DNA from: Bradyrhizobium sp. ISRA430
GTDB lineage: Bacteria; Pseudomonadota; Alphaproteobacteria; Rhizobiales; Xanthobacteraceae
NCBI RefSeq assembly: GCF_029909975.1
Contig: NZ_CP094516.1
Coordinates: forward strand, 1,054,001 to 1,118,000
Direction of reading: 5' to 3'
DNA: 64,000 nucleotides
Shown here: positions 14,799 to 29,749 of the stretch, in pieces
Position numbering within the stretch: the stretch's first letter is position 1
How the letters are laid out: each line of letters starts with the position of its first letter
Translations under genes and position numbers: made by a program
The notes under the pieces: model-generated
What the model was told of the DNA's origin: nothing
What the model saw: only the letters and a program-made list of their open reading frames with translations
Databases searched by the model: none

Positions 14799-14851
14799 TT
14801 TTGCTTGGTGAGCGCGCTGGGGCTCGAACCCAGGACCCCGTGATTAAAAGT
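14799..14851. repeat. Left attachment repeat (displaced tRNA-Lys 3' part)
   Basis: These 53 bases are identical to 29697-29749. They contain the 3' part of a tRNA-Lys gene (- strand), from the last base of the 5' anticodon stem through CCA and five bases beyond. The 5' part is absent here, so this copy is the displaced host end after integration. Confidence 0.92.
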
Positions 14852-14858
14852 TATGGCC

Positions 14859-15030
14859 GTGCACACAGGCCAAGTTGCTGCAAACATTGCGTTTCCTCCG
14901 AAACCCCAAGAAAATCCTATAGATTCAGGCTTTACTGCGCTTGTCAACTGATGGCGAGAAATGACTTGCGTTGACCCTGCCGTGTGTGCATAGAGTGTGC
15001 ACAGAGACCACGTAATGATTTGGTGTGCAC
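14859..15030. promoter_or_regulatory. GTGTGCAY sites at the left end of the element
   Basis: One inverted copy lies at 14859-14866, a tandem pair at 14984-14991 and 14995-15002 (11-base period), and a single copy at 15023-15030, just upstream of the integrase ribosome site. Matching pairs occur at 20390-20408 and 29625-29643. They may be integrase arm sites or operators controlling the integrase. Confidence 0.55.
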
Positions 15031-15042
15031 GGAGGGCGGGCG

Positions 15043-16278
15043 ATGCAGGTCAAGATCAGCAAGACGCAAGTTGACCGGATGACAGCGGGGCAGATCCTCG
15101 CGGACAAGGAAGTGAAGGGCTTTGTGGCGCGCTGCCTCAACAGCGGTGCCGTGACGTATGGATATCGCTATCGCGACAAGACGACCGGCAAGCAGCGTTG
15201 GCTCGGCCTGGGGTTGCACGGGAATATCACTGCCGAGCAGGCTCGCGACTTCGCCAAGAAGGCAGCCGGCGAGGTGGCGGACAAGAAGGACCCGCAAGGG
15301 GAGTTGGAAACCTCCCGCGCCGACGCCAAGCGGGAGAAGCTGGCCGCCGTCAACACGGTGAACACGGTGCTGGACGCCTTCGAAAAGGACCACGTTGACG
15401 CTCTACGGAGCGGCGATCAGGTCAAGGCGGCCTTCACCAATCATGTTCGGCCGCGCATTGGTGATAAGTCGATTTACGATCTGAAGCGCAGCGACATCAC
15501 CACCATGCTCAACGAGATCAAGGCCGAGAGCGGTCCCGTGATGGCTGACCGGGTGTTGGCGCACGTCCGCAAGGCCTTCAACTGGCAGATGGTGCAGGAC
15601 GACGAATTCAAATCACCGATCGTCCGCGGCATGGCGAAAACGAAGCCGAAGGAGCGGGCTCGCAAGCGCATCCTGGCGGATGACGAGATCAGGGACGTTT
15701 GGGCGGCCCTCGACAAGATCGAGCAGCCGGCCTGCTATCCCCGGTATGTGAAATCTCTGCTGCTCGCCATGGCCCGGCGCAACGAGTGCTCCGAGATGCA
15801 CTCGGAAGAGATTAATGGCGATCTCTGGACCATCCCCGGGGCGCGCTACAAGAACAAGCTCGATCATGTCATTCCGATCACGCCCGCCCTGCGAGCGCTC
15901 ATAGGCGAGAAGCCTGACGGCTACGTGTTCTCGACCACCGGTGGCAAGAAACCCTTCAGCGGCTTCAGCAAGGCCAAGAAAGAGCTAAACCGGATCATAG
16001 CCAAGATCCGGAAGGCAGAGGGCAGGGCGCCAATGAAGCAATGGCAGCTACACGACCTGCGGCGCACCGGCCGTAGCCTCATGAGCCGCGCCAAGGTTGA
16101 CGCTGATCATGCCGAACGGTGCATGGGCCACGTCATCGGCGGTGTGCGTGAGACGTATGACCGTTACGAATATCTGGAGGAGAAGCGGCAGGCATTCGAG
16201 GCGCTGGCCTCGATGCTGAACATGATCCTGAACCCGCCGGCAAACAACGTGATCCAGTTTGCGGAAGCTTCCAAATGA
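15043..16278 (+). CDS. int: Tyrosine-type integrase of the element
   Basis: A 411-residue site-specific recombinase that would insert and excise the element at tRNA-Lys. Residues 1-90 form an arm-binding domain with the DUF4102-like GYRYRDKTTGKQRWLGLGLHG. The core carries the first catalytic Arg in AMARRNECSEM (about 245), HDLRRTGRS (about 337-345), MGHVIG (about 360) and the nucleophile in TYDRYEY (about 371). ATG 15043 follows GGAGGGCGGG; an upstream in-frame start at 15025 has no such site. The stop overlaps the next ATG by four bases. All catalytic residues seem present, so it is probably active. Confidence 0.95.
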   Translation: MQVKISKTQVDRMTAGQILADKEVKGFVARCLNSGAVTYGYRYRDKTTGKQRWLGLGLHGNITAEQARDFAKKAAGEVADKKDPQGELETSRADAKREKLAAVNTVNTVLDAFEKDHVDALRSGDQVKAAFTNHVRPRIGDKSIYDLKRSDITTMLNEIKAESGPVMADRVLAHVRKAFNWQMVQDDEFKSPIVRGMAKTKPKERARKRILADDEIRDVWAALDKIEQPACYPRYVKSLLLAMARRNECSEMHSEEINGDLWTIPGARYKNKLDHVIPITPALRALIGEKPDGYVFSTTGGKKPFSGFSKAKKELNRIIAKIRKAEGRAPMKQWQLHDLRRTGRSLMSRAKVDADHAERCMGHVIGGVRETYDRYEYLEEKRQAFEALASMLNMILNPPANNVIQFAEASK

Positions 16279-16661
16279 AAAAACGGAAGCCCTTCCCTGA
16301 GGTGCAAGACCATGAATTGGACATCGCGTTTCAATGGGTGCGCGCTCTGCTCGACGCCCTTGCAGAGAGCCCGCTTAAGACGGATCGCGAAAGGTATGCC
16401 GCTTTAGTAACTCTCAAGAAGGCTGGCGGCATATTGACATCCGGCGACACGCTGGCCGGCAACCGGCCCAAGGGTGAACTCATTTCGCCCGTTGATGCCG
16501 CAGTGATCGCTGACGAGGAGCGCTACGGATCTCTGCGCAAGGCAGTTGCCGCCCATGTGGCGGCGGGCAAGCTGTCTCGGCACACACAAGAAAACTCACA
16601 CTATCTTCGTATCCTTGGCTTAAGGAACGGGGCGAAAACTAAGATCAAACGCAAGCGATAG
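16275..16661 (+). CDS. Hypothetical protein coupled to the integrase
   Basis: A 128-residue charged protein whose ATG overlaps the integrase stop (ATGA). The first 55 residues look helical (HELDIAFQWVRALLDALAES, RERYAALVTLKKAGG), and the C-terminus is strongly basic (GAKTKIKRKR). No family is recognised. Coupling to the integrase suggests a part in integration or excision, for instance as a small DNA-binding accessory, but there is no visible helix-turn-helix. Confidence 0.7.
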   Translation: MKKRKPFPEVQDHELDIAFQWVRALLDALAESPLKTDRERYAALVTLKKAGGILTSGDTLAGNRPKGELISPVDAAVIADEERYGSLRKAVAAHVAAGKLSRHTQENSHYLRILGLRNGAKTKIKRKR

Positions 16662-16730
16662 TCCTAATCGTGCGCGGCCAGGTAATAGGCCGTAATTGGA
16701 TGGCGGTTCTTTCAACACAAGGACTGCCAA

Positions 16731-16994
16731 ATGACCACCACGACCAAGACCCGGCGCCCGCCAGTCGATACTCAGGGTGCCGCGATCTACACCGGCTTCG
16801 CCGAAAGTTATCTCACCAAGATCCGCTGCACTGGCGGTGGCCCCATCTTCATTAAGCGCAACGGCACCGTCCGGTATGACCTGGACGACCTTGATGCGTG
16901 GCTCGAGGCCGGCAAGCTGGCTTCTACTTCCGGCGAACGCCGCGGCATCCCGCGAAAGCGGAAGGCCAAGGAGAGCGCGGAGGCCGCCGCCTGA
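16731..16994 (+). CDS. AlpA/excisionase-like MerR-type HTH protein
   Basis: An 87-residue DNA-binding protein. Residues 12-60 read DTQGAAIYTGFAESYLTKIR, then GGGPIFIKRNGTVRYDLDDL and DAWLEAGK, the pattern of HTH_17/AlpA proteins. In satellites and prophages such proteins activate or direct excision and early transcription. The basic tail (RKRKAKE) would help DNA binding. The gene starts 70 bases after the previous one, and its stop overlaps the next start by one base. Confidence 0.82.
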   Translation: MTTTTKTRRPPVDTQGAAIYTGFAESYLTKIRCTGGGPIFIKRNGTVRYDLDDLDAWLEAGKLASTSGERRGIPRKRKAKESAEAAA

Positions 16995-17188
16995 TGCAGC
17001 CTCACATGGAAAACCCGGCGCTGGCGGGCACCGGGCTTCCGAAATCTGATCTGGCTGGCGCTTCGATCTGTTCGGAATCTAACTCACCGCTTCGCAAACT
17101 TCAAGCATCTCGCCTCATGCGACGTTGCGCGATCAGCTTCGCGCTGGCGGCTGCCATCGTTCCGTACGTTCACGGAGATGCAGCATGA
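16994..17188 (+). CDS. Small hypothetical protein (64 aa)
   Basis: Starts at an ATG overlapping the previous stop (TGATG) and ends four bases into the next gene (ATGA). Residues 40-58 form a hydrophobic stretch (CAISFALAAAIVPYV) that could be a membrane helix; the first half is polar. The support is its place in a chain of coupled genes, not its composition. Confidence 0.45.
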   Translation: MQPHMENPALAGTGLPKSDLAGASICSESNSPLRKLQASRLMRRCAISFALAAAIVPYVHGDAA

Positions 17189-17658
17189 GTGAGCCCATCA
17201 CCATCACTCTTCCTGGTGCCCCTCAGGGGAAGGGCCGCGCTCGAGCTTTCCTTCGCGGCGGCAAGATCGGCCACTACACGCCCCAGAAGACACGCTCTTA
17301 TGAGAGCCTGATCTTCGGCGCCGCCGTCGACGTAATGCGCGATCGGCCACCATTCGATGAGGCGGTGCAGTTCACGCTCCGCGCCATCTATCCGGTCCCG
17401 GCCTCATGGTCTGAACGCAAACGCCAGAAGGCACTAGCCGGCGAAATCAGGCCGGCGAAGAAGCCGGATCTCGACAATGTCGCAAAGGCCTGGAACGACG
17501 CTCTCAATGGCGTGGTGTACCGGGACGATGCGCAAATTGTCTTGATGTGGATCGAAAAGCGCTATGGCCCGCAGCCGCTTGTCGTCTGCACCATCCAACC
17601 GGTGGAGGCCGCAAAGATGTCCGAAGTCCGGACAGCTTCGGCGGAGGGCTCGCGATGA
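17185..17658 (+). CDS. rusA: RusA-family Holliday junction resolvase
   Basis: A 157-residue endonuclease that cuts four-way DNA junctions made during phage replication or recombination. The start of the fold, TITLPGAPQGKGRARAF, and the active-site block KPDLDNVAKAWNDALNG followed by VVYRDDAQI match RusA, with the metal-binding aspartates in PDLDN and RDDAQ. Length is slightly above E. coli RusA (120). Start and stop overlap both neighbours (ATGA), so it belongs to the replication operon. It could resolve replication intermediates before packaging. Confidence 0.9.
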   Translation: MSEPITITLPGAPQGKGRARAFLRGGKIGHYTPQKTRSYESLIFGAAVDVMRDRPPFDEAVQFTLRAIYPVPASWSERKRQKALAGEIRPAKKPDLDNVAKAWNDALNGVVYRDDAQIVLMWIEKRYGPQPLVVCTIQPVEAAKMSEVRTASAEGSR

Positions 17659-17852
17659 ACCCGCTAGCTCTCGCAATCATTGGTCAGCTTCGCGCCATCA
17701 GCGAAGCCACCTCCCAGGTTCATTGGCGGGCCGAGGAGCTTCAGGCGATGTCGAGCTTGCTGCACCAGGCAGCCGGCAACGTGGAGCAAGCCATCTCCCG
17801 GCGGCAGGTCACGAGGAAGCGTAACTATCCCGACCAGGGAGGCGCTGCATGA
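17655..17852 (+). CDS. Small helical hypothetical protein (65 aa)
   Basis: The ATG overlaps the rusA stop, and the stop overlaps the next ATG. The protein is predicted mostly helical (AIIGQLRAISEATSQVHWRA, EELQAMSSLLHQAAGNVEQA) with a basic tail (RRQVTRKRN). It may be a small coiled-coil or DNA-binding accessory protein of the replication operon; no family is recognised. Confidence 0.6.
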   Translation: MNPLALAIIGQLRAISEATSQVHWRAEELQAMSSLLHQAAGNVEQAISRRQVTRKRNYPDQGGAA

Positions 17853-19708
17853 ACCTTTCGCTTCAGCAACTGGCTGCGGCCCTTGGTGGCGAGATCTCAG
17901 GGAAGCAGATATTGGCTCCTGGACCGGGGCACTCTCCGAAAGACCGATCCCTTTCGATCAGGCTGGACGATACCGCGCCCGGCGGTATGGTGGTGCATAG
18001 CTTCGCAGGCGATGATGCGCTGACGTGCAAGGACTATGTGCGCAATCGGGCCGGCCTCGCGCGGTGGGAGCCACAAACATCCGGCAACGCCAATAACGCC
18101 ATTTCGAACATGACGAGCCGTGTTTCGCGCCCGGTTGCGAAGGCCGGTAGTCCGCCAGCAGAATACATCTATCGGCAAGCGGACGGCACGCCATACCTCC
18201 GCGTCAAGCGTCCTGGCTTCTACCAAGCGCATTGGGACGGCAATGTGTGGGTTAACGGTGCTCCAAAGGGGCCGAAGATCCCTTATCGGCTGCCCGAACT
18301 AACCGCGGCCGAGCACAATGACGTGGTCGTGGTCGAGGGCGAGAAAGACGCCGACAACGTTGCTGCGCTCGGCTTCGTCGCCACGACCAACTCTGGCGGT
18401 GCGGAGAAGTTCACTCCCGACCTGGCCGAACACTTCGAGGGCAAAGACGTCTATATCCTTCCTGACAACGACGACCCAGGCGAGGCGCACGCTGAGCAGG
18501 TAGTGGCAACGCTGCAGAGCGTCGCCCGCTCAATCCGCGTGGTGCGTTTGCCGGGCCTCCCCGCGAAAGGGGATGTCTCTAACTGGATCGAGGCCGGCGG
18601 GACCGCGGACGAACTCGCGGACCTGTTGCGCCGCGCGCCCGTCATTGAAGCAGTGGCTCCTCAGCGCCTCATTAAGTCCAGCGCGGAGTTTCTGGAAGGC
18701 TTCACGCCGCCGGACTATCTGATTGATGGGCTTGTGCAGCGCCGCTTCCTCTATTCGATCACGGCCCCAACCGGACACGGCAAAACAGCGGTTGCGCTGC
18801 TCATCTCGGCTCATAAAGCGCTGGGCCTGCCAATCGGCAAGCACGATGTCGATCCGGGCCGCGTTCTCTACTTTGCGGGCGAAAACCCCGACGACGTTCG
18901 GATGCGGTGGATTGCTCTTTCTGAGAGGATGAACTTCGATCCCAAGACTATCGACGTTCATTTTCTCGAAGGAACGTTCAAGGTTTCCGAGCTGATCGCA
19001 CGCATCAAGCAGGAAGTGAACGACCTTGGCGGCGTGTCTCTTATCGTTGTCGACACGAGCGCGGCGTATTTCGAGGGCAGCGAGGAGAACGGAAACGTTG
19101 AGTCTGGCACACACGCCCGGATGTTCCGGCAATGCCTGAAATTCGCTGGCGAGCCGTGCACACTTGTCCTTTGTCATCCGGTCAAGAATGCGAAGCAAGA
19201 CAACCTGCTTCCCCGTGGCGGCGGCGCCTTCGTTGCGGAGGTCGATGGCAACCTGACATGCTGGAAGACGGACAGCCTCGTGTCCCTGCATTGGCAGGGC
19301 AAGTTTCGTGGTCCCGACTTCGCGCCGATCACCTTCCAACTCGAGACCGTCACATCAGCGCACCTCAGGGACAGTAAGGGCCGACGAATCCCCAGCGTGG
19401 TGGCCAAGGTGCTTTCCGATGCCGAGAAGAGCCGGGCTGAGACCACTTCGCGGGACGATGAAGATGTTCTGCTGCTCGCGGTCGCAGACCACCCACGCGC
19501 GTCCTATGCCGGCCTGGCTGTCGCGCTCGGGTGGGTATCGGACAAGGGCGAGAACAAAGCCAAGGTGAAACGATGCGCCGACCGGCTGAAGTCCGACAAG
19601 CTCGTCAAACCTGATCGTCGCGGCACTCTCTGCCTCACAGAAAAGGGTGAAACGGAGGTGAAACGGCTGCGCGCCAATCAACCTCATCAAGCCGGCGTTT
19701 CAAACTGA
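17849..19708 (+). CDS. Toprim-RepA-like helicase, replication protein
   Basis: A 619-residue protein with three parts. Residues 150-220 form a Toprim fold (VVVVEGEKDADNVAALGFVA and DVYILPDNDDPGE). Residues 285-500 form a RecA/KaiC-like hexameric ATPase of the RepA type, with Walker A TAPTGHGKTAVAL and Walker B SLIVVDTSAAY. The C-terminus (550-619) looks like a winged helix. An N-terminal zinc finger, as in true primases, is not evident. It is probably the helicase, and perhaps initiator, for element replication. A cluster of TGAAACG repeats starts inside its 3' end and continues downstream. Confidence 0.88.
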   Translation: MNLSLQQLAAALGGEISGKQILAPGPGHSPKDRSLSIRLDDTAPGGMVVHSFAGDDALTCKDYVRNRAGLARWEPQTSGNANNAISNMTSRVSRPVAKAGSPPAEYIYRQADGTPYLRVKRPGFYQAHWDGNVWVNGAPKGPKIPYRLPELTAAEHNDVVVVEGEKDADNVAALGFVATTNSGGAEKFTPDLAEHFEGKDVYILPDNDDPGEAHAEQVVATLQSVARSIRVVRLPGLPAKGDVSNWIEAGGTADELADLLRRAPVIEAVAPQRLIKSSAEFLEGFTPPDYLIDGLVQRRFLYSITAPTGHGKTAVALLISAHKALGLPIGKHDVDPGRVLYFAGENPDDVRMRWIALSERMNFDPKTIDVHFLEGTFKVSELIARIKQEVNDLGGVSLIVVDTSAAYFEGSEENGNVESGTHARMFRQCLKFAGEPCTLVLCHPVKNAKQDNLLPRGGGAFVAEVDGNLTCWKTDSLVSLHWQGKFRGPDFAPITFQLETVTSAHLRDSKGRRIPSVVAKVLSDAEKSRAETTSRDDEDVLLLAVADHPRASYAGLAVALGWVSDKGENKAKVKRCADRLKSDKLVKPDRRGTLCLTEKGETEVKRLRANQPHQAGVSN

Positions 19709-19884
19709 GTGAAACGACTGAAACGACGTGAAACGACACAGCGAAAAGGCAAGCAGATGAAAGTACTTCTCCAATCCACGAAGGCTGAAACGGTTGAAAC
19801 GGTCTCCCCATTACGGGGTGGGTTTTCAAACCCCGTAGGGTCGTTTCGTTTCAGTCCCTTCCCTAGGGGTGAAACGATGAAACG
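19566..19884. repeat. Iteron-like TGAAACG repeats, candidate replication origin
   Basis: Ten direct copies of TGAAACG start at 19566, 19648, 19659, 19710, 19719, 19729, 19786, 19795, 19870 and 19878; inverted copies are at 19696-19702 and 19847-19853. Neighbouring copies are spaced 8-11 bases apart. A hairpin, TACGGGGT with ACCCCGTA, sits inside at 19812-19837. The position just after the helicase gene fits an origin bound by an initiator. Confidence 0.65.
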
Positions 19885-19960
19885 CTCGAGGTGCTATTGC
19901 GAGGAATGCGAAGGGTTGATGGCAGAAGGGCTGGTCTACGGGCCGGACGATTACCGGTGA
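19757..19960 (+). CDS. Possible small cysteine-cluster protein
   Basis: The frame from ATG 19757 encodes 67 residues ending in RSRCYCEECEGLMAEGLVYG, a CxCxxC cluster that might bind metal. An internal ATG at 19876 would leave only 27 residues. The first half coincides with the iteron-like repeats and the hairpin, which may be the true function of this DNA. The stop overlaps the GTG start of the next gene. I hold this call weakly. Confidence 0.3.
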   Translation: MKVLLQSTKAETVETVSPLRGGFSNPVGSFRFSPFPRGETMKRSRCYCEECEGLMAEGLVYGPDDYR

Positions 19961-20355
19961 AGAAACAGCAACGAAGCACCGGGCTGAAAGCGCCGTGGAA
20001 GCCTGGCCAATCTGGGAACCCCCTAGGACGGCCTCAGGGCGCCCGTAGCAAGTTCTCCGAAGCCGCATGCGCTGATGCGCTTGCGGACTGGACGAAGAAC
20101 GGCGCAAACGTCCTGGAGCGGGTGAGGGAGACCGACCCGTCAACCTACTTGAGAGTTTTGTTCGCGATCATCCCGCGCAACGTCGAGCTTTCGATCGAGA
20201 ACCGCACTGGTCCGATGGACGCCGTTGAGATGCAGGCGATGCGCCGGCTTGTGGCGCTGATCCAGGCGACGGCGAGCGCGGTCGATCCTGAGACCGTCTT
20301 CGCATGGATCGAAGAGGATCTGAGGGCTCGAGTTGCGAAGCAGGTTGGCGGCTAA
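19957..20355 (+). CDS. DUF5681 protein, possible small-terminase-like
   Basis: A 132-residue protein starting at GTG 19957, which overlaps the previous stop. It opens with the DUF5681 signature KAPWKPGQSGNPLGRPQGAR, followed by a helical region. DUF5681 proteins are often found near phage packaging genes, and some may act as small terminase or DNA-binding subunits; that role is inference. In this element it lies 4 kb before the large terminase. Confidence 0.7.
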   Translation: MKKQQRSTGLKAPWKPGQSGNPLGRPQGARSKFSEAACADALADWTKNGANVLERVRETDPSTYLRVLFAIIPRNVELSIENRTGPMDAVEMQAMRRLVALIQATASAVDPETVFAWIEEDLRARVAKQVGG

Positions 20356-20389
20356 CCCTGAGTCATTTTGACGCACATTTTTGCCGTTT

Positions 20390-20540: not shown

Positions 20541-20729
20541 ATGGCCTACGACTCCAACGACGACCGCTCGAACAACCCCAAGGCGGTCCTCCGCCGTGCC
20601 GGCTTCACGATTGTGAACAAGAGCATTCCGGAGGGGTATATGCGGAATCAATCGACCACGGAAATCGGCCGCAAGATCACTCCGAGCGGCGACGGTTCGG
20701 GCTGGGGCGATAATGGGAAGCTTGGGTGA
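20541..20729 (+). CDS. Hypothetical protein (62 aa), first of the virion-side genes
   Basis: A small polar protein, Asp/Asn/Gly-rich (MAYDSNDDRSNNPKAVLRRA), ending DGSGWGDNGKLG. The region upstream holds the tandem GTGTGCAT pair, and GAAAGGA lies ahead of the ATG, so this may be the first gene of a separately controlled transcript running to 26910. No family is recognised. Confidence 0.55.
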   Translation: MAYDSNDDRSNNPKAVLRRAGFTIVNKSIPEGYMRNQSTTEIGRKITPSGDGSGWGDNGKLG

Positions 20730-20734
20730 TCGCC

Positions 20735-20881
20735 ATGCTTTCCGAAGAGCAACTGCGTCAGCTTATCAACGACCTGCGCGACCAAACCGCACTGGGCCGG
20801 ATCGCCCTTCGCGAGGCTGAAGAGATCTTCGCCCGGCTGGTTGAGCTTGGCTATGTCGTGAGCAAGCCCGCCAATGGCTGA
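20735..20881 (+). CDS. 48-residue helical protein
   Basis: The frame from ATG 20735 reads MLSEEQLRQLINDLRDQTAL, then GRIALREAEEIFARLVELGY. It is probably two amphipathic helices. It overlaps the next gene by eight bases and starts five bases after the previous stop, which supports it as part of the operon despite its size. Confidence 0.55.
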   Translation: MLSEEQLRQLINDLRDQTALGRIALREAEEIFARLVELGYVVSKPANG

Positions 20882-21224
20882 GTTTAGATACGCCAGAGAA
20901 GACCTCCTGAAGGCCGCAGCCGAGCGCAAGGGTTTGACCGTCTCAGCCTATCTCCGCTCACTGGCGGACTCCGCATTGGCTTCTGAGGGCTTTCCCGTTG
21001 CCGAGCAGCAGTACTGCCTGGTTCGTGGCGGTGAGCTGATCGCCACCAGCTTCAAGCCGGCCAAGGACGAGGACGGCGGCGAATGGCTGCCGATCGAGAA
21101 CGAGGACAGCCAACCCTTTGACCCTGCCAAGCATTGGCGGCTGAAGCCTCTCCCGCTTCGCCTGGATGGTGATCGGGTGGTGCGGGTCTATCCGGTGGTC
21201 GTGAAGTCGCAGGAGCACGCATGA
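20874..21224 (+). CDS. Hypothetical protein next to the tail-collar gene
   Basis: A 116-residue protein. Residues 6-36 (AREDLLKAAAERKGLTVSAY, LRSLADSALASEG) resemble a short helix-turn-helix or ribbon-helix-helix arm; residues 45-116 are beta-rich (QYCLVRGGELIATSFKPAKD). The stop overlaps the tail-collar start by four bases, so the product may assist folding or attachment of that fibre. This is inference from order. Confidence 0.6.
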   Translation: MAEFRYAREDLLKAAAERKGLTVSAYLRSLADSALASEGFPVAEQQYCLVRGGELIATSFKPAKDEDGGEWLPIENEDSQPFDPAKHWRLKPLPLRLDGDRVVRVYPVVVKSQEHA

Positions 21225-22234
21225 CCGGCGTAGCATGGTGGTCTCAGACGGCGGCAAGCAACGCCACCCAGGATCCGACTGTCGGGTGGGCTGAAGGACA
21301 ATCGCCTTCCAGCGTCAATGACAGCGCCAGAGCCATGATGGCCTCTGCGGCCAAGTGGCGAGATGACATCTCCGGCGCTATCACGACTGGAGGCGTTGCC
21401 ACTGCCTACACGGTGGCTAGCAACCAGAACTTTGACAGCCTCTCACGGCTCGCCAACCAGGTGATTGCCTTCACCCCGCACACGACTTGCGGCGCCACGG
21501 TGACGTTGTCCGTTGACGGTCTGGGCGCGAAGCCTCTTCGCTCGGCGCCTAACGTCGAACTCGCTGCCGGACATCTCGTCCAGGGCACGCCGTATGTTGC
21601 CATCTACAATAACGGCGACGGGGTGTTTTACCTTCAGGGCTTCTACGGCAATCCGTACAACACCCCGATTGGCGGTGTTTTGCCCTACACGGGCACCAGT
21701 GCGCCCAACAGCTCGTTTGTGCTGCCGTACGGTCAGGCGATCAGCCGCACGACCTATTCCACCTATTTCGGGATTGTGGGCACGACGTACGGCGGCGGTG
21801 ACGGATCAACGACGTTTAACATTATCGACCTTCGTGGCCGCGTTGTCGCGGGCAAGGACGACATGGGTGGCGTTGCTGCAAATCGGCTCACTGCCGCCGG
21901 AGCGGTGACGGGAACGACCCTCGGTTACGCTGGCGGCGCCGAACTCCATACGCTGAGCGCATCTCAACTTCCGACGATCAACTCATCTGGCACAGCCTCG
22001 GTTACTTCGACGGAAGACAAGATCCCCTCAAACACCGTTCAGCTCGGAACGGTGACTGCTGTGGGTGGCGCTCAGTGGGGCATTGTCGGTCCGTCAAACG
22101 GTTCTCAGCCGGCAACGATTGGACTGATCCATTCCACCGGTACGGCCACCGTGGCCTCTACGAACACCGCGGGCGGGTCGCATAACAACGTGCAGCCGAC
22201 GATCATTCTCAATTATCTTCTGAGGATCATTTGA
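21221..22234 (+). CDS. Phage tail-collar domain fibre protein
   Basis: A 337-residue structural protein. Residues 1-150 are a repetitive beta region typical of fibre shafts. Residues 155-220 hold the tail-collar fold (PF07484): FVLPYGQAISRTTYSTYFGI, YGGGDGSTTFNIIDLRGRVV and AGKDDMGG. The C-terminus ends HNNVQPTIILNYLLRII, the standard end of collar proteins. It would sit at the tail tip and take part in host recognition. Its presence without tail-tube or baseplate genes is odd. It overlaps both neighbours. Confidence 0.9.
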   Translation: MTGVAWWSQTAASNATQDPTVGWAEGQSPSSVNDSARAMMASAAKWRDDISGAITTGGVATAYTVASNQNFDSLSRLANQVIAFTPHTTCGATVTLSVDGLGAKPLRSAPNVELAAGHLVQGTPYVAIYNNGDGVFYLQGFYGNPYNTPIGGVLPYTGTSAPNSSFVLPYGQAISRTTYSTYFGIVGTTYGGGDGSTTFNIIDLRGRVVAGKDDMGGVAANRLTAAGAVTGTTLGYAGGAELHTLSASQLPTINSSGTASVTSTEDKIPSNTVQLGTVTAVGGAQWGIVGPSNGSQPATIGLIHSTGTATVASTNTAGGSHNNVQPTIILNYLLRII

Positions 22235-23436
22235 TGTCCGAGACCGAACAGCCTCGCAGCGAAAACGGTCAATTCACGAGTGGCAATGAGCAGTTGTTCG
22301 GCCGATCTGCTGAGCTTGTGGATCACGGGTGGGTTGAGCCGGACAAGCCGAAAGAGGAAGAACCTGAGGCCAGCCTTGATGACCAACTCCGGCAAGCGGC
22401 TGACGCGTTGGCGGACTCTCGGTTCTCGGGCGACCCTTTCGAGACCAGCCCAATCGAGTTGACGCATGGCGGCGAGAAAGCGGCAGATAATCTTGCACTG
22501 ACGCCTGAGGAGGCGTCAGACTCGCTGAAGCAGTGGCGGGCAGACGAGGCCGAAACGAAGCAGGTGCTCGAGGATGCCGAGTTCCTGGAATCGATCGGGC
22601 TTGACCCGCTGCCGCCGCAATTACAGCAGCCGGCTGAAGCGGCTCAAGACGGGGTGGCGAATAAGTCCGCAGAGGCACAACAGCAGCCTGCGGACCAGCA
22701 TCAGCATGAGGCGGACGAACTCGGCAAGGCGCTGGCGAACCCGGTCATTGTGGAGGCGTTGAAGGGTGAGTTTGCCAAGGCCGAGCAGGTTAGGTCAGCG
22801 TATGCGCAAACCCTGGACAACGCTGTCGCGGTCGCCGAGTTTAGCTTCCTATCCCAATTCCCCGAGTTTCGGGGAGTTACCGATGCCGGTCATCTGAAGT
22901 CGATTGCGAATTCGATCGCTGTTCAAAATCCGCAGCGATGGCAGGCCATTCAGCAGACTGCGGCACAGGCCGGCCAGCTCGTGCAGGCGCAGGCGGCGGA
23001 ACGTGCCCATGCTGCGCAGGCTCGTCAGGCGGATCTCGACCGCGTTGGTGCGGAGCATGACGGCAAGTTTGCCGCATGGGAGAAAACACTGCCAGAGACA
23101 ACGCGGCGCGCGGCAGCAGCCGAATTGCCAGCGATGTTCGCGGAGGCGGGGGTCTCGGTCGATGACTTCGCGCGTGAGATGAAGACCAATCCGGCGCTGC
23201 GGCACCATGCATTTCAACGCATGGTGATGGAGGCTGCGGCCTATCGGGCTATGCAAAAGAACGTGCCGAAAGCCCTCCCCAAAAACCTGCCTCCGGTTCA
23301 GCGGCCGGGAACGGCACAGCCGCGCGCTCCCCAGGGTGTGCAGGATGTCAGCCGAGCGAATGCACGGTTTCAGGCGTCGGGATCGATCGACGATGCACTT
23401 GAATTGTTGTCCGCACAGCGAGCCTCAAGAGGATAA
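22234..23436 (+). CDS. Scaffold-like acidic phage protein
   Basis: A 400-residue soluble protein, rich in Gln, Ala and Glu. It has a disordered N-terminus (SETEQPRSENGQFTSGNEQL), a long helical middle (residues 170-310), and a C-terminus with SRANARFQASGSIDDALELL, which resembles the C-terminal helical hairpin of podovirus-type scaffolding proteins. No capsid gene follows it. ATG 22234 overlaps the collar stop; the in-frame TTG just before is unlikely. A role in procapsid assembly or capsid redirection is inference. Confidence 0.55.
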   Translation: MSETEQPRSENGQFTSGNEQLFGRSAELVDHGWVEPDKPKEEEPEASLDDQLRQAADALADSRFSGDPFETSPIELTHGGEKAADNLALTPEEASDSLKQWRADEAETKQVLEDAEFLESIGLDPLPPQLQQPAEAAQDGVANKSAEAQQQPADQHQHEADELGKALANPVIVEALKGEFAKAEQVRSAYAQTLDNAVAVAEFSFLSQFPEFRGVTDAGHLKSIANSIAVQNPQRWQAIQQTAAQAGQLVQAQAAERAHAAQARQADLDRVGAEHDGKFAAWEKTLPETTRRAAAAELPAMFAEAGVSVDDFAREMKTNPALRHHAFQRMVMEAAAYRAMQKNVPKALPKNLPPVQRPGTAQPRAPQGVQDVSRANARFQASGSIDDALELLSAQRASRG

Positions 23437-23439: not shown

Positions 23440-23688
23440 ATGGCTGATGATTATTTGACCCGCTCGCGGCGGCGCGCCGGCTACTTCGGTACCGACGACA
23501 CGCCGCAGGAAATTGCCCGCAACTTTGGAACGATGCCTCTCGAGAAGAGGGCCAACGTTCTCGAGGAACTGGAAAACGGCTCGGACGATTCGATTGACAG
23601 CACGGACATGACGGCCGCGCTTGATAAGCGTCGTTACGTCGAGCTGATGCGGCGCACTCATGACGCATTGCGGAGGCAGGGCCGATGA
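23440..23688 (+). CDS. Hypothetical phage-type protein (82 aa)
   Basis: A charged, mostly helical protein (MADDYLTRSRRRAGYFGTDD, MPLEKRANVLEELENGSDD). It starts three bases after the scaffold-like gene and overlaps the next start by four bases (ATGA). No family is recognised. Its place between scaffold-like and terminase genes suggests a virion or packaging accessory. Confidence 0.65.
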   Translation: MADDYLTRSRRRAGYFGTDDTPQEIARNFGTMPLEKRANVLEELENGSDDSIDSTDMTAALDKRRYVELMRRTHDALRRQGR

Positions 23689-24098
23689 GGCTGTTTCTGG
23701 GCTGGTGTAAGCTCAACCAGGCGCATCATTTGCCTGCCTCGGTGCCGGACGTTGTTCGGTTCGTTACGGACAATTCGAACATTTCGCCCGACCTGATGCA
23801 TGCGGAGCTTACGGCGATCGATGAGGAGCACGAAGCCTTGCTTTATGCCCCTCCCGGCAAGGCTCGCGCAGTAATCAAGGCAGTCAACGCGGCATGGCCG
23901 ATTGATGCGCCGCGATCGTGGCCCGCAGAAGATAAGGGGCGTTTTGCCGAGCTGCCGCATCATCTTCAGGTCTACCTTGAGAGGCGGGAGAAGCAGCGCG
24001 ATCAGGCCGTGAGGGACGCACAGAACGAGGCCGCCGAGCTGCGCAAAAAGCTCAAGAAATTCGAGGAAGCAAATGCTGAAACCAAAACCGCAGCCTGA
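23685..24098 (+). CDS. Hypothetical coiled-coil protein (137 aa)
   Basis: Residues 1-90 form a compact domain (GWCKLNQAHHLPASVPDVVR, ISPDLMHAELTAIDEEHEAL). Residues 95-133 form a charged coiled coil (EKQRDQAVRDAQNEAAELRK, KLKKFEEANAE). The architecture is compatible with an assembly or adaptor protein. The gene overlaps the previous one by four bases and the next by 26 bases. No family is recognised. Confidence 0.65.
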   Translation: MRLFLGWCKLNQAHHLPASVPDVVRFVTDNSNISPDLMHAELTAIDEEHEALLYAPPGKARAVIKAVNAAWPIDAPRSWPAEDKGRFAELPHHLQVYLERREKQRDQAVRDAQNEAAELRKKLKKFEEANAETKTAA

Positions 24099-24282
24099 AA
24101 AGCCGCTGGCTGAGCGGATCGCAGATTTTCGGGCTGAACTTGACGCCTTTATCGATGCGAGGGCCAAGGAGGTGGCGGAGGATTGCCCCGGTGTGCCGCT
24201 TGGCGTGGTGCGCAACATGCTGACCGCTCACGCTGGCGCCTGTCAGTGTCAGGCCGTGCAGAACCTAGAGCAGAGCGCATGA
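24073..24282 (+). CDS. Hypothetical helical protein (69 aa)
   Basis: An acidic helix (AERIADFRAELDAFIDARAK) is followed by a short segment with GACQCQAV near the C-terminus. The start lies inside the end of the preceding gene (26-base overlap in another frame), and the stop overlaps the next ATG. Coupling on both sides supports it as real. Function unknown. Confidence 0.6.
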   Translation: MLKPKPQPEKPLAERIADFRAELDAFIDARAKEVAEDCPGVPLGVVRNMLTAHAGACQCQAVQNLEQSA

Positions 24283-24458
24283 GCGATATGGGACTCCTCT
24301 CCATGCTGGCCGACAACGATTTCATGGCTCGATTGGCCGAGAAGGAGCGCATTGCCGAACGCGTTGCCGAGCAAATGGGTGTAACGCTCCAGGAGGCTCA
24401 TCAGGCGCTCTATCATTTCGCGGCCGATCTCTCCAGTGATGGGCAGACGTTGCATTGA
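24279..24458 (+). CDS. Small hypothetical protein before terminase (59 aa)
   Basis: Begins at an ATGA overlap and ends on the base where the terminase ATG starts. The product is helical and charged (DNDFMARLAEKERIAERVAE, QMGVTLQEAHQALYHF). The position directly before the large terminase is where a small terminase often lies, but 59 residues is short for that, so I leave it unassigned. Confidence 0.6.
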   Translation: MSDMGLLSMLADNDFMARLAEKERIAERVAEQMGVTLQEAHQALYHFAADLSSDGQTLH

Positions 24459-26029
24459 TGCACTGGACGGACGCAATCAACGGCGCCCTGGATCATGCCG
24501 AGCGGCTTGATACGGACCTGGAGTATTTCGCCGAGCAGCACCTGAAGATCCGCCCCAAGGCCGGCGGCCTTGTGCCGTTCAAGTTCAATCCGGTGCAACG
24601 GAAGCTACATCAGATCATCGAGGAGCAGCGCGCCAAGACCGGGATGGTGCGCGTTGTGGTCCTCAAGGCGCGACAGGAAGGCGTCAGCACCTATGTTGCC
24701 GGCCGCTACTATCACAAGACGATCAAAAAGCCCGGCTTCCTCACCGCGATCGTGGCGCACGAAAAGCCGGCGGTGCGAAACCTGTTCGGCCTGGTCAAGC
24801 GCATGCACGATTGCATGCCTGACGATATGCGCCCGGTGACTGGTGCAAGCAACGCTGAAGAGCTGAAGTTCTCTAGCATCGATAGCGGCTATCTCGTCTC
24901 CGTCGCGACGGAAGACGGCGCCGGCCGATCGTCAACCGCGCAGGCTTTGCACGCTTCGGAGGCTGCGTTCTGGGTGAACCTCAAGGAGCAGCTTGCCGCA
25001 CTGATGGAGACCGTGCCCGATCTCCCCGACACGGAAATCATCGTGGAGACCACGGGCAACCAGTTCGGTGATGAGTTTCATCAATTCTGGTGCAAGGCCG
25101 TTGCCGGCGAGAACAGCTTCCTGGCGGTCTTCCTTCCCTGGTCTGAAGATCCGACCTATCGCAAGGCCATTCCCGACGACTTCGCGATGACGGCGGAGGA
25201 GAAGCGGCTTGCCGAGCTGCACAACCTCGATGCCGAGCAGATTTACTGGCGGCGCTGCAAGATCGCCGACAAGGGGGACATCAACTATTTCAAGCGCGAA
25301 TATCCGCTGACACCGGATGAAGCTTTCCTTGCCTCCAGCTTCGACAGCTTCATTCCGCACGAGCTCGTGATGCGAGCCCGGAAGGCCCCGAAGACTGGAT
25401 CGGGGCCGCTCATCATCGGGGTTGACCCCGCGCGCTTCGGTCCTGACAGCACGGCCATTGCCTGGCGCCGCGGTAGCTGCATCGAGAAGATCGAGAAGCG
25501 GAAGGGCCTTGATACCATGCAGGTGGCCGGCTGGGTTGCCTCGATCATGCGGGAAGACAAGCCGGCCAAGGTCAATATCGACGTGGGCGGCCTCGGCTCC
25601 GGCATCTATGACCGTCTCGTGGAGCAAGGCTACGGCGGCTCATTCGGAAGCGGCAAGCTGAACGCGATCAACTTCGGTTCAAAGCCGATCGAGCCTCCGC
25701 CCCTGGATGACACCGGCAAGCCGTCCGGTGGTCCCGCCAACCGGCGGGCTGAGATGTGGTCTCATCTTAAAGCCGCGCTCGAGGGGGCTCACTTCTCATT
25801 GCCGGACAGCGACAGCCTGCAAACCGACATCTGCGGTCCTGGCTACCGCTACATGAGCGACGGCCGGCTCGTGCTGGAGAGCAAGGACGAGATGAAGAAG
25901 CGGGGGATGCAGAGCCCCGACGAAGGCGACGCGGTGGCGCTGTGCTTCAGCGAGCCTGGAGGGGCTCCCATGGTCGCCAACAGCAACTTCAATCGGCCGA
26001 TCGTGTATCCCAATGCGGGGATCGTTTGA
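24458..26029 (+). CDS. Terminase large subunit
   Basis: A 523-residue DNA-packaging motor. The ATPase half shows the Walker A-like VLKARQEGVST (about 68-78) and ALHASEAAFW (about 163-172). The nuclease half has an RNase H-type fold with aspartates in IIGVDPARFGPDS (about 318), VNIDVGGLGSGIYD (about 371) and DEGDAVAL (about 487). Both halves seem complete. ATG 24458 overlaps the previous stop. The downstream primase starts at TTG inside its last codons. In a satellite this enzyme would allow packaging independent of the helper's terminase. Confidence 0.9.
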   Translation: MHWTDAINGALDHAERLDTDLEYFAEQHLKIRPKAGGLVPFKFNPVQRKLHQIIEEQRAKTGMVRVVVLKARQEGVSTYVAGRYYHKTIKKPGFLTAIVAHEKPAVRNLFGLVKRMHDCMPDDMRPVTGASNAEELKFSSIDSGYLVSVATEDGAGRSSTAQALHASEAAFWVNLKEQLAALMETVPDLPDTEIIVETTGNQFGDEFHQFWCKAVAGENSFLAVFLPWSEDPTYRKAIPDDFAMTAEEKRLAELHNLDAEQIYWRRCKIADKGDINYFKREYPLTPDEAFLASSFDSFIPHELVMRARKAPKTGSGPLIIGVDPARFGPDSTAIAWRRGSCIEKIEKRKGLDTMQVAGWVASIMREDKPAKVNIDVGGLGSGIYDRLVEQGYGGSFGSGKLNAINFGSKPIEPPPLDDTGKPSGGPANRRAEMWSHLKAALEGAHFSLPDSDSLQTDICGPGYRYMSDGRLVLESKDEMKKRGMQSPDEGDAVALCFSEPGGAPMVANSNFNRPIVYPNAGIV

Positions 26030-26910
26030 GCGAACCACTTACTCCAGACAAACGAGAACTTAGCCGTTTCGTTGCCTCGATCTTCAAGCACGCAAACCGT
26101 GAGGGTCACGTGCTGTTGCAGGCCTTCCCGGCCGGCAAAGGATATGATGAAGCACTGTTTGCCGAGACGATTGCCCTTGATGACCCGCGTTTTCTCGACG
26201 CTGTCTATGAGCGAGCGCGGGAGACGGCAGGCCACCCGGTCCCGGCTGCGTTCTGTCCTCCTGTGTGGACGTTCAGGCCCGATTCGACGGAGCCATTCGA
26301 GGGTTTATGCATCAGCATCGATGCCGACTTCATGCCAAACGCGGGACGGGATAGGCTCGAGCGAACGCTAGGCCCCGCAACGATCGTCATTGCCTCCGGC
26401 GGTAATTGCCTTGGGACGGGCGAACCAAGGCTGCATCTGTATTGGCGTCTCGCCAGTCCGGCTGTCACGCCTGAAGATCGGGCGTTGTTGGCTGATGTGC
26501 GCGAGCAGGCAATCAGGCTCGCGATTGCTGACAGGGGTATATTCCCACTGCGCTGGCCGGGGAGTTGGCACCGCAAGGGTGATCCAAAATTAGCGAGGAT
26601 CATTTTCGAGAGTGAAACAGAGATAGATCTGAATGTGGCCATGAGCCGCCTTCAGGAGGGATTTGACCAGCTAACGGACGTTGAGCAGCTTGCCATCGAT
26701 CTTGAAGATCAAATCAATCACTTCGCTTGCCTGATTGCCGATCTGGCCATTCCAGAACTCTTGGAAATGTTTGAATTTGCGGCCCGCGAATACGGCCTTT
26801 CCCTGTTGCAGTATCTACGCGCCATGATCAGGCTGTGGGCTACGGGATCAGGCCTGCCTATCGGTGATTGCGCAGCGCCCGCTTCTGTTGCCAAGCCCTT
26901 AATTCATTGA
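26026..26910 (+). CDS. RepB-type primase (archaeo-eukaryotic fold)
   Basis: A 294-residue protein starting at TTG 26026, overlapping the terminase stop (TTGA). Motifs of the AEP superfamily are visible: the catalytic SIDAD at about 95-99, SGGNCLGTGEPRLHLYW at about 125-141 with the conserved His, and PLRWPGSWHRKGDPKLARI at about 173-191, the RepB_primase signature block. It would make primers for element replication together with the Toprim-helicase. It overlaps the convergent membrane gene by 53 bases at its 3' end. Confidence 0.78.
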   Translation: MSEPLTPDKRELSRFVASIFKHANREGHVLLQAFPAGKGYDEALFAETIALDDPRFLDAVYERARETAGHPVPAAFCPPVWTFRPDSTEPFEGLCISIDADFMPNAGRDRLERTLGPATIVIASGGNCLGTGEPRLHLYWRLASPAVTPEDRALLADVREQAIRLAIADRGIFPLRWPGSWHRKGDPKLARIIFESETEIDLNVAMSRLQEGFDQLTDVEQLAIDLEDQINHFACLIADLAIPELLEMFEFAAREYGLSLLQYLRAMIRLWATGSGLPIGDCAAPASVAKPLIH

Positions 26911-27704: not shown

Positions 27705-28220
27705 ATGAAAGCCCAATACGTCCTAGACGCCCCTGGCGAGTCCCAGGAATCGTTCGCCGCGCTCGCGGCTGCCGTACACCCCGCTTGGCACCAGGCCATC
27801 ATACGACTCGCTAACGCCTCTGAGAGGGTCGCCTTTCGCCTTGAGGCGTTCATGGGTACGCCCATCGACCGCGGAATGGTCCACCACGCCCGAGAGCTGG
27901 TTAAGGATCTCATCGACTTCCTGGACCAGCTCGAGGCCGATCCCGACCTCGAACCTTCGTTCGGTTCGGTAGCGTATGGCTACGGTCCCGGCGCCGATGA
28001 ATGCGAGCCGGACGACGCAGAGCCGTCCCTTGGCTCTCTCGACCGCGCCATGGACCAAGTCCGCTGGGCTATGGGTGCCTGCGACGATGCCGAGCACGAG
28101 CACGATGGCCGGGAGCCGGAGGACCGCGAGGACGACCCTGCCGAGGCCGGCGTCGCCGATTTCGAGGGGCTGCTTGAGCAGATCGGCATGCGGGACTGGA
28201 CAAACACGGTGATGGCCTGA
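27705..28220 (+). CDS. Acidic hypothetical protein (171 aa)
   Basis: The N-terminal 75 residues form a helical domain (AWHQAIIRLANASERVAFRL, ARELVKDLIDFLDQLE). The rest is strongly acidic with a repeated motif (DLEPSFGS at about 82 and DAEPSLGSLD at about 106) and a run of Asp/Glu. The EPSLGS motif recurs in rhizobial and Rhodopseudomonas proteins of unknown role. The charge might mimic DNA, but there is no direct evidence. The stop overlaps the next ATG by one base. Confidence 0.65.
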   Translation: MKAQYVLDAPGESQESFAALAAAVHPAWHQAIIRLANASERVAFRLEAFMGTPIDRGMVHHARELVKDLIDFLDQLEADPDLEPSFGSVAYGYGPGADECEPDDAEPSLGSLDRAMDQVRWAMGACDDAEHEHDGREPEDREDDPAEAGVADFEGLLEQIGMRDWTNTVMA

Positions 28221-28480: not shown

Positions 28481-29047
28481 CTACTGCGATTGCCAGCTAA
28501 GCTTTCCGTCGCGCTCAGGGCGCGTGAAGAACCGGAATTGTGTCTCCCACAGTGTAGGCCAATAGCCCGGCCGGTAATTCACCTTCAGGATAAAATCCGC
28601 TGCTGTCAGACTGACCGGCTTTTCGGCCGTCAGAGCGTCGTCAATCCGAAATGTGTACTTTTGATCGCGAGTACGGGTATCAACATGTAGCTGCGCAAAC
28701 CGTAGCCACGTAGGGGAGCATGGAATCGGGTCTATTCGAATAAGCGGTCCATCCGTTTGGACAAAGCACAGCCCCAGGTCGATCTGGACGTCGTTGAGGC
28801 TAATGAATCCGGTGTTGGTTAGCTTGAATTGAAGCGGATGCGGATCCCGCGGGTCGAAGCTCGATGGGTCAGCGTCAAGCGTCATCCGTGGCCAAAGGAA
28901 TTGGAAACTGAGCACAAAACCGACGATGGCAATTGTGCCGAAGAAGACGGCAGCCCTTCGACTGCCTTTGCGCTTGCGCTCTTTCGCAAGTTGATCCTCT
29001 AGCCATTTGATGTGCTTTCGGTCGGCTCTGCTGTTTCTTTTCGACAT
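28481..29047 (-). CDS. Membrane-anchored hypothetical protein (188 aa)
   Basis: Residues 1-30 are basic and helical (WLEDQLAKERKRKGSRRAAV), residues 32-50 form one membrane helix (VFFGTIAIVGFVLSFQFLW), and the remaining 135 residues are a beta-rich periplasmic domain (PLQFKLTNTGFISLNDVQID, SLTAADFILKVNYRPGYWP). The domain resembles an Ig-like or CARDB-type fold in its alternation, but I cannot assign it. It lies in the accessory arm of the element and could be cargo. Confidence 0.65.
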   Translation of the reverse strand: MSKRNSRADRKHIKWLEDQLAKERKRKGSRRAAVFFGTIAIVGFVLSFQFLWPRMTLDADPSSFDPRDPHPLQFKLTNTGFISLNDVQIDLGLCFVQTDGPLIRIDPIPCSPTWLRFAQLHVDTRTRDQKYTFRIDDALTAEKPVSLTAADFILKVNYRPGYWPTLWETQFRFFTRPERDGKLSWQSQ

Positions 29048-29120
29048 AGCTCCCTATCGGACGACAGGACCTGGGCTGCTTTCGTCTACCAGAATCAGAT
29101 CTTCGAAAGGCCGCCCCAGA

Positions 29121-29408
29121 TCATGTCGTGTTTCGATACCCCATCGATGGACCACGCGTTTGGCCCCAGTTGAAATCAGGCCGGATCTCGGCACCGCGCC
29201 TGCCGCAGGCCTTGCAGGCGAATCGGGGCTCGAGGTCGGACAACCGTACTTCATCAGGCCAGGAGTCCGCATTCAGGGCAACGCTATGGCCGCACTGATA
29301 GTCGGCGCAATAGACCAGCACGCCGCGCACGCCCATCTCGCGCATCTCGCCGAGGGTGATTTTGACCGGGCGGTGACCGGGCGGTGTGTGGGGAACGGGC
29401 TTACGCAT
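29121..29408 (-). CDS. Small zinc-binding hypothetical protein
   Basis: A 95-residue protein containing KITLGEMREMGVRGVLVYCA, then DYQCGHS and FACKACGRRGAEIRPDFNW. The four cysteines (YCADYQC and CKAC) suggest zinc binding. From memory it belongs to a widespread rhizobial family of unknown function that also occurs on chromosomes. It shares orientation with the gene at 28481-29047, with 73 bases between. The 240 bases to the tRNA end carry no other gene. Confidence 0.7.
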   Translation of the reverse strand: MRKPVPHTPPGHRPVKITLGEMREMGVRGVLVYCADYQCGHSVALNADSWPDEVRLSDLEPRFACKACGRRGAEIRPDFNWGQTRGPSMGYRNTT

Positions 29409-29624
29409 GCCGCCATCAAAGCGGCGCCCAACACGGCGTCAAACTATCGATTCCTAGCGGCCCGGAACGCGCGCGAGCTACTGCCGGTCGTGGGTGTGGA
29501 AAAGCGTCGGGTCTGCCGGCGAACCGCTCTTTGCCCGCCGGGCGAGGCGAACAACGATTATGCACCAAAACATTATCAGGCCCCCGAAGGCGAAAGCGTC
29601 TTCGCTCATTGCGGCACCCGCGGT

Positions 29625-29643
29625 GTGTGCATGACGTGTGCAC
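29625..29643. promoter_or_regulatory. Tandem GTGTGCAY pair at the right end
   Basis: GTGTGCAT at 29625-29632 and GTGTGCAC at 29636-29643 are 11 bases apart, 54 bases inside the right attachment repeat. The arrangement mirrors the left end, which fits arm sites for the integrase. Confidence 0.55.
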
Positions 29644-29648
29644 GCATT

Positions 29649-29674
29649 AAAAAAGCCCCTCGATTTGAAGGGCT
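29649..29674 (-). terminator. Terminator downstream of tRNA-Lys
   Basis: Read on the - strand, AGCCC and GGGCT form the stem base, followed by six T. It lies 30 bases after the tRNA 3' end and within the element, so integration has supplied the tRNA with this terminator. Confidence 0.6.
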
Positions 29675-29696
29675 GAAATACAGGATAAGTCCTTGA

Positions 29697-29749
29697 TTTT
29701 GCTTGGTGAGCGCGCTGGGGCTCGAACCCAGGACCCCGTGATTAAAAGT
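29697..29749. repeat. Right attachment repeat (within tRNA-Lys)
   Basis: Identical to 14799-14851. Identity stops at 29749, which is tRNA position 31, the last base of the 5' anticodon stem. Strand exchange therefore probably happened around the anticodon loop. Confidence 0.92.

Follow-up and report, generated by a model that had tools for sequence, protein, structure and literature searches.

A putative phage satellite at a tRNA-Lys gene of Bradyrhizobium, with its own terminase and a divided podophage scaffold

An integrated element and its genes

The stretch of DNA analysed here, 64,000 nucleotides of Bradyrhizobium sp. ISRA430 (contig NZ_CP094516.1, positions 1,054,001 to 1,118,000; hereafter the window, whose numbering is used throughout), carries an integrated element of 14.9 kb, densely packed with genes, in a single-contig genome of 8.56 Mb. 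The element is bounded by a 58-nt direct repeat with one mismatch and an exact core of 53 nt, of which the left copy (attL, 14794..14851) is a partial tRNA-Lys copy and the right copy (attR, 29692..29749) overlaps the intact tRNA-Lys(ttt) gene (29704..29779, minus strand), the integration target. A 33-nt core of the repeat occurs in the window only at the two att positions (0 expected from 100 shuffles), and a 34-nt core pattern that leaves some positions open and tolerates two mismatches finds only the same two places genome-wide. Coding sequence makes up 96% of 15043-26910, and 12 of the 18 gene junctions overlap, eight of them by 4 nt. The genes run from the integrase (int) through orf2, an AlpA-like gene, RusA, orf5, a Toprim/AAA_25 replication gene (rep), orf7, a DUF5681 gene and orf9-11 to a tail-collar fibre, the scaffold-like gene scaf, orf14-17, the large terminase gene (terL) and orf19, followed by accessory genes.

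The genes that could act on a virion lie in the middle of the element, on the plus strand like all others unless stated. The tail-collar fibre (21221..22234; tail-collar 1e-11, phrog_8763 1e-26) is followed by scaf (22234..23436), whose 400-aa product joins the C-terminal half of a podophage scaffold to an unrelated N-terminal region (phrog_3927, 2.6e-7). The product of orf15 (23685..24098) carries the phage scaffold N-terminal motif P.SW..LP..Q..RE as a separate protein. The large terminase (TerL; 24458..26029) matches phrog_2 at 3e-32 and has ATPase and RNase H-like nuclease motifs but no Pfam match, and the DUF5681 protein (19957..20355; DUF5681 4e-7) is a candidate small terminase (TerS). 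Profile scans of 24 window products gave no match to portal, capsid, protease or tail-tube families.

Integration and replication functions occupy the left part. The tyrosine integrase (15043..16278; Arm-DNA-bind_3 2e-11, Phage_integrase 4e-8) has relatives of 81-84% identity in genomes G081 and G331 (G numbers denote genomes and L numbers loci), and is followed by orf2 (16275..16661, no family match), an AlpA-like excisionase or activator (16731..16994; phrog_66 4.5e-6, Pfam HTH_17 only below the cut-off), a RusA Holliday-junction resolvase (17185..17658; PF05866 5e-30), the small orf5 (17655..17852; 55% relative in G081) and the primase-helicase gene rep (17849..19708). Several small genes fill the remainder, namely orf7 (19709..19960), orf9 (20541..20729), orf10 (20726..20881), orf11 (20874..21224; 116 aa, 87% identical in G093), orf14 (23440..23688), orf16 (24073..24282; with an invariant C.C pair) and orf17 (24279..24458). 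Beyond orf19 (26041..26910) lie an accessory gene common to other family members (27705..28220; 86% in G093) and two accessory open reading frames (ORFs) on the minus strand (28481..29047, and 29121..29408 with a 62% relative in G093). PADLOC found no defence gene in a set of 10 products that included 6 from the window.

A first-pass annotation of this DNA had described 53-bp att repeats at tRNA-Lys, frames open to 26910 and many of them overlapping, an intact integrase, an AlpA-like protein, RusA, a DUF5681 protein, a collar fibre, a scaffold-like protein and a large terminase, with no visible capsid or tail-tube genes; the repeats, junctions, family matches and profile searches above agree with each of these. 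Its Toprim-helicase holds for the helicase part (AAA_25, 3e-19), the Toprim match itself falling below the cut-off. Its 'AEP primase' (archaeo-eukaryotic primase), orf19, has no match in Pfam, PHROG or NCBIfam and no meaningful match in the PDB, but some of its 55 homologues listed carry PriCT_2 or AAA_25, so that the product is likely primase-like.

In 11 loci of relatives lacking the element, the right flank runs continuously through tRNA-Lys at 84-91% identity. The chromosome to the left of the element (12600-14790) is poorly conserved in relatives, in contrast to the right flank.

A divided scaffold, two packaging variants and a candidate helper

Prophages in five Bradyrhizobium genomes (G010, G020, G043, G049 and G343) encode a protein of 254-402 aa, as called, which lies downstream of the portal gene and directly upstream of the gene for the major capsid protein (MCP). 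These proteins were aligned with the scaffold of locus L002, a phrog_3927 head scaffolding protein (3e-39). In profile comparisons by hhalign, columns 135-362 of this alignment matched scaf (probability 99.8, E 9e-30) and columns 88-148 matched orf15 (probability 97.9, E 5e-13), and orf16, used as a control, had no match to it (probability 0.7%). Residues 1 to about 170 of scaf had no equivalent in the phage scaffold by profile comparison. Profiles of scaf and orf15, built from satellites and from a second gene cluster called locus A (see below), were run as six-frame scans; both fell on the same ORF in six of the eight phage loci and on two separate ORFs in 11 of the 13 family members with scaf. 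The two phage-locus exceptions are L002, which matched only the phage-scaffold profile that includes L002 itself, and G089, which matched neither. The same kind of scan gave no MCP match in any family member. A new finding from these comparisons is that the one-piece scaffold of Bradyrhizobium podophages is divided here, with its C-terminal half in scaf and an N-terminal motif in orf15. The AlphaFold model of scaf is helical, and in Foldseek searches eight of its 12 best viral matches, and three of the six at E <=0.001, were named scaffold or scaffolding protein. Against phage scaffolds of the L003 type the hhalign comparison of scaf was negative, the right partners being L002 and the Bradyrhizobium type.

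Full-length TerL relatives were found in 8 of 265 genomes, all of them family members, and all eight satellite TerLs fell in one clade (support 100/100, stem of 1.2 changes per site) of a tree whose phage side was the 10 best of 80 viral loci; terL of G089 was excluded for a stop in its reading. Ratios of nonsynonymous to synonymous substitution rates (dN/dS) were 0.067-0.228 over 28 pairs, with a median of 0.121 and with synonymous sites near saturation in distant pairs, and indicate that satellite terL is under purifying selection. All five TerL motifs were present in six of the eight proteins, the strict patterns missing one in G034 and two in G087; in the terL alignment the rows of these two genomes are N-terminal pieces. 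Against the PDB, residues 16-229 matched 'DNA packaging protein Gp17' (8e-7) and residues 313-394 'Gene 2 protein' (1e-6), which we take to be the T4 ATPase and the Sf6 nuclease, respectively. A C-terminal link between satellite TerL and the TerL of phage ppBeUSDA76-2 (E ~7e-4) was set aside, as it lies over the region of the nuclease motif.

The elements appear to package in two ways. Two bounded elements without terL (G331 and G223) encode an Sf6-type small terminase (L147, 13310-14125; L175, 13147-13917) between rep and orf11, the position held elsewhere by DUF5681, with matches to PF20901 (3e-32, G331) and phrog_1482 (5e-36 and 5e-37). The profile of this TerS finds G331, G223, G201, G272 and G078, exactly the members without terL, and has no match in nine other members, 12 locus A loci or 8 phage loci. 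The DUF5681 protein is present in seven members, all carrying terL. Since it occurs only with terL, and since the Sf6-type TerS takes its place where terL is absent, it is a candidate small terminase of the TerL-bearing variant.

A candidate helper is suggested by scaf and the collar fibre. Among 50,697 phage records, the sole match of scaf was ppBeUSDA76-2 (72 C-terminal residues, 40% identity, E 3e-3 for the collection), which was also the best match of the collar fibre (49% over the full length, E 3e-59). This is a complete 41.8-kb podophage (OP596614) with portal, MCP and one-piece scaffold, whose TerL carries a PBSX-family annotation; prophage G010 gave scores equal to those of ppBeUSDA76-2, and the two are probably one prophage. 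According to the cited passages of its description, it is spontaneously produced by B. elkanii USDA 76 and has 57-nm heads (PMC10127595). Compared over seven other satellites, four locus A copies and ppBeUSDA76-2, residues 1-210 of the collar fibre are 43-80% identical to the window protein per 30-residue block (group means), residues 241-330 only 17-36%, and the end is conserved again. The fibre is thus predicted to be a virion-fitting base with a hypervariable tip. A helper of this type, mobility of the element and redirection of the helper's capsid and tail tip are inferred.

Related elements in the genus and locus A

The scaf profile matched in 61 of 265 Bradyrhizobium genomes, and the surroundings of the match were mapped in 44 of the 61, the window included; among the 17 unmapped genomes, 12 match only about the last 70 profile positions. 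A TerL search gave matches in 22 of 197 genomes, the element's own included. Nine elements of 14.7-17.4 kb, the window element among them, are bounded by tRNA-derived repeats, at Lys (window, G277 and G331), Ser-gct (G093), Ser-tga (G034 and G087) and Arg (G042, G344 and G223) tRNA genes. Profiles seeded from family members place int, orf11, collar, scaf, orf14 and orf16 in 9/9 of them (with low scores in G034, where orf11 reaches 26 bits and int 32 bits), orf15 in 8/9, terL in 7/9, DUF5681 in the same seven and orf17 in 6/9. An AAA_25-type rep was found by profile in 7/9, D5_N or AAA_25 proteins occurring in the other two. Podophage-type MCP and portal profiles matched in 0/9. When 26 selected proteins of the relatives were scanned against PHROGs, none was a portal or capsid protein; the families found were primases, helicases, tail fibre or spike proteins, an HNH nuclease and small terminases.

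Variation around this core concerns the fibre region and partial copies. G087 has an extra fibre gene between collar and scaf (phrog_11393, 2e-16), and G034 has two extra tail proteins at the same place, one of them matching phrog_5880 at 6e-97; relatives of these two (28% and 39%) sit before the collar gene in prophage G043. Partial or unbounded members are G204, which has terL and lacks the left part of the gene set, G272, G201 and G078, which is degraded and has a broken scaf. G081 (L113, 3200-5814) is a deletion derivative of 10.5 kb, still between att repeats, in which the first 483 or so codons of rep continue into terL at about its codon 126. The element of G331 (L147/L206), 17.3 kb long and without terL at its tRNA-Lys gene, carries a tRNA-Ser gene inside. 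A scaf scan across the order (397 genomes) gave two weak matches outside the genus, both to the scaf C-terminal half and in two other families of the order (L215/L216; G486 and G497).

The split scaffold also occurs in a different setting. Locus A, mapped with MCP at 11 loci (L153, L155, L156, L161, L164, L170, L172-L174, L176 and L177, with L187-L197), is a podovirus-derived cluster with portal in at least two ORFs, MCP and tail genes, followed by scaf-orf14-15-16-collar; a gene of 418-428 aa precedes the portal in 9 of the 11. The mapped stretches contain no satellite-integrase match and no tRNA. More widely, 22 of the 265 genomes have an MCP and, 9-19 kb away on the same contig, a near full-length scaf match. 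At all 11 mapped loci, scaffold profiles match just the split pair, about 8-12 kb from MCP, and nothing beside it. Locus A genes are under purifying selection, with median dN/dS values of 0.08-0.21 for 16 of them and an omega of 0.09 for MCP. In a midpoint-rooted scaf tree with the phage scaffolds on the opposite side, five locus A proteins form one clade (100/99) that adjoins the window and G277 proteins (86/93), within the satellite side. Only the distal half of locus A remains in two genomes (L186/L204 in G308; L185 in G034, contig 57). It comprises a scaf remnant of 173 aa, orf14-16, a collar gene that is either a copy or a remnant, and the genes that follow; no MCP match was found in these two genomes.

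Locus A is possibly a gene transfer agent or a domesticated prophage. A tentative history, which we consider less likely than not as a whole, is that the satellite lineage split a helper scaffold for capsid control and that a domesticated podovirus cluster later captured the split scaffold. The C-terminal half would have gained a new N-terminal region while the N-terminal motif was freed as a separate protein, and the split scaffold would have been coupled to a satellite-only TerL, or to TerS, and to a swappable fibre tip. Locus A would then have lost the scaffold beside its MCP and might now build heads, perhaps gene-transfer particles, with the satellite-derived scaffold.

A probable satellite that would borrow coat and portal

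The window element encodes an integrase and replication functions, and profile searches find no complete set of virion genes in any of the nine bounded elements, as expected for phage satellites. The explanation that we consider probable is an integrated satellite that takes over a podophage coat through its split scaffold, probably making small heads, and that packages itself by its own terminase. When a podophage of the ppBeUSDA76-2 type infects the cell or is induced, the element would excise and replicate with its own enzymes. Sharing its C-terminal half with the phage scaffold, scaf could compete for the helper coat protein, and orf15 might act as a second scaffold part, in portal recruitment or in removal of the helper scaffold. 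Together they could steer the coat into heads, probably smaller, that fit 15 kb rather than 42 kb. The element terminase would dock on the helper portal and fill these heads, members without TerL supplying only TerS and so redirecting the helper TerL, and the element fibre would replace or supplement that of the helper, with the base kept and the tip changed. We infer these parts with confidence that falls from helper dependence for coat and portal to coat binding of scaf by the shared half, self-packaging by TerL, replacement of the fibre, orf15 as a second scaffold or a rival of the helper's own and, last, smaller heads. The satellite is 15-17 kb long and the phage 41.8 kb, a ratio close to that of SaPI1, a Staphylococcus aureus pathogenicity island (SaPI), and its helper 80alpha (about 15 and 44 kb).

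Several observations weigh against this interpretation or parts of it. The left flank is poorly conserved in relatives, with similarity only in G009 (75%) and G002 (72%), at a suitable spacing of roughly 2.1 kb, so that the empty site is weakly supported on that side, and the att repeat of G087 is just 15 nt, which makes its bounding weaker. Five members, two of them bounded, do without terL, and G034 and G201 have scaf without orf15, so that both genes are dispensable. DUF5681 is assigned as TerS from its co-occurrence with terL and its position, and its structure model is poor (pLDDT 49.8). In pairwise comparison, scaf matches a phage scaffold only over some 80 residues at the C-terminus; the scaf model is only moderate (pLDDT 70.7), its Foldseek matches have low TM-scores, and a fold search of the PDB gave no match at E <=0.001. 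Coat binding by the scaffold C-terminal end is carried over from other phages, and excision, packaging and transfer of the element are predictions from its sequence. Podophage MCP was found in 0 of the 14 member-carrying genomes, against 42 of 265 overall; without a resident helper of this kind, the helper would come from outside. Because about two would be expected by chance in 14 hosts, this absence is not taken as an exclusion.

The satellite could instead use full-size helper heads, with concatemers filled in by its own terminase and with scaf and orf15 ensuring assembly or interfering with the helper, but leaving capsid size unchanged. Three 15-kb units come close to one 41.8-kb phage genome. 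The cited passages report that large capsids take up concatemers of SaPIs that lack size redirection (PMC6893505), and they suggest packaging as trimers or more for the Pseudomonas satellite AH14b (PMC4936722). A dedicated, rebuilt scaffold pair (scaf in 9/9, orf15 in 8/9) would nevertheless be hard to explain without an effect on assembly, and we consider this account rather unlikely. Fragments of the same terL elsewhere in the genus, the clear internal deletion from rep into terL in G081 and the degraded G078 might recall a decaying prophage that had lost its head and tail genes and was retained by chance. Random gene loss and relaxed selection are not what the family displays, however, as nine bounded elements keep the same set and miss the same genes, terL is under purifying selection and falls in a satellite-only clade, and TerL plus DUF5681 is exchanged in an orderly way for TerS alone. 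Prophages of the genus, moreover, have a one-piece scaffold, and the TerL of ppBeUSDA76-2 is annotated as PBSX family, which leaves decay a quite improbable origin. Least probable is a self-sufficient small phage with a coat and portal too divergent to recognise: several products do lack a family match, but only int, orf11 (116 aa), collar, scaf, orf14 and orf16 are universal in the nine elements, and scaf, the sole large universal unknown, is homologous to scaffolds of phages with a separate MCP.

The proposal of the first-pass annotation, a satellite with its own terminase that perhaps redirects a helper's capsid and tail tip, is supported and extended; the terminase is borne out in sequence, and the redirection would follow only if the element acts as outlined above. 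That annotation had named two findings that would speak against it. Divergent portal or capsid genes were not found among the 24 window products scanned or, by podophage-type MCP and portal profiles, in the eight bounded relatives. Its other concern, a fragment of a longer prophage, is not borne out by the satellite TerL clade, the selection on terL or the recurrence of the block; the same core set was found in nine Bradyrhizobium elements, that of the window included. Since it recurs in tRNA-bounded elements of near-constant size with the same absences, the block is not a one-off prophage fragment.

A satellite of this kind would add a new family of phage satellites for the nitrogen-fixing genus Bradyrhizobium; among the matches listed from the open full-text literature of 5.39 million papers, which leaves preprints and subscription journals outside, there was no description of a rhizobial or Bradyrhizobium phage satellite. 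It could occupy the middle ground between satellites that take every virion part from a helper and those that build complete heads, as packaging genes, scaffold and fibre would here be supplied by the element and coat and portal borrowed. The split scaffold offers a testable new way of capsid-assembly takeover, the two packaging variants (TerL with DUF5681, or TerS alone) a natural comparison, and the candidate helper ppBeUSDA76-2, with its visible 57-nm particles, is already in culture.

The element shares features with several known satellites and matches none of them fully. With an integrase, an AlpA-like protein and a primase-helicase in about 15 kb and without MCP, it resembles the Gram-negative phage-inducible chromosomal islands (PICIs) of the EcCI type and has the size, int, AlpA or repressor, and pri-rep genes by which PICIs are recognised in the cited passages (PMC6092414). 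The absence of phage structural genes, which the same passages state for Gram-positive PICIs, does not extend to this family, where scaffold parts and a collar fibre are present, as is TerL in seven of nine bounded members. Its own large terminase is a likeness to capsid-forming PICIs and to the Mulch and Flayer satellites, which, as far as the passages cited describe them (PMC10690885), differ in encoding MCP and portal, found here in none of nine, and DUF5681 is a candidate for the TerS that would accompany TerL. Satellite proteins also reshape helper capsids in the P4/P2 and PLE/ICP1 pairs (PLE, phage-inducible chromosomal island-like element), according to parts of the cited accounts (Sid, PMC6893505; PLE, PMC10945586); Sid is there an external scaffold without obvious phage relatives, unlike the parts found here, which are homologous to a phage scaffold. 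The library scans of the 24 window products gave no family for Sid, Psu, Delta or alpha, no direct comparison having been made. These four genes are carried by P4-like satellites. With ppBeUSDA76-2 the element shares the scaffold C-terminus and the whole tail fibre, but that phage is complete. Members with TerS only recall those SaPIs that redirect the helper TerL. The element also resembles SaPI1-type islands in size, in having its own replication genes and in a two-protein capsid module (CpmA/CpmB there, scaf/orf15 here). As the cited passages have it, the C-terminal end of CpmB holds a coat-binding motif in common with the helper scaffold, a counterpart to the C-terminal half that scaf has in common with a podophage scaffold, and SaPI1 on 80alpha turns a T=7 capsid into T=4 (PMC5644958, PMC6893505). 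General library scans of the window products showed no Cpm families, although the libraries may hold none and CpmA/CpmB were not compared directly. Unlike SaPI1, the window element has its own TerL and tail fibre, its scaf is of 400 aa against 72 for CpmB, and orf15 carries another piece of the helper scaffold; the parallel with CpmA/CpmB is, by analogy, one of design.

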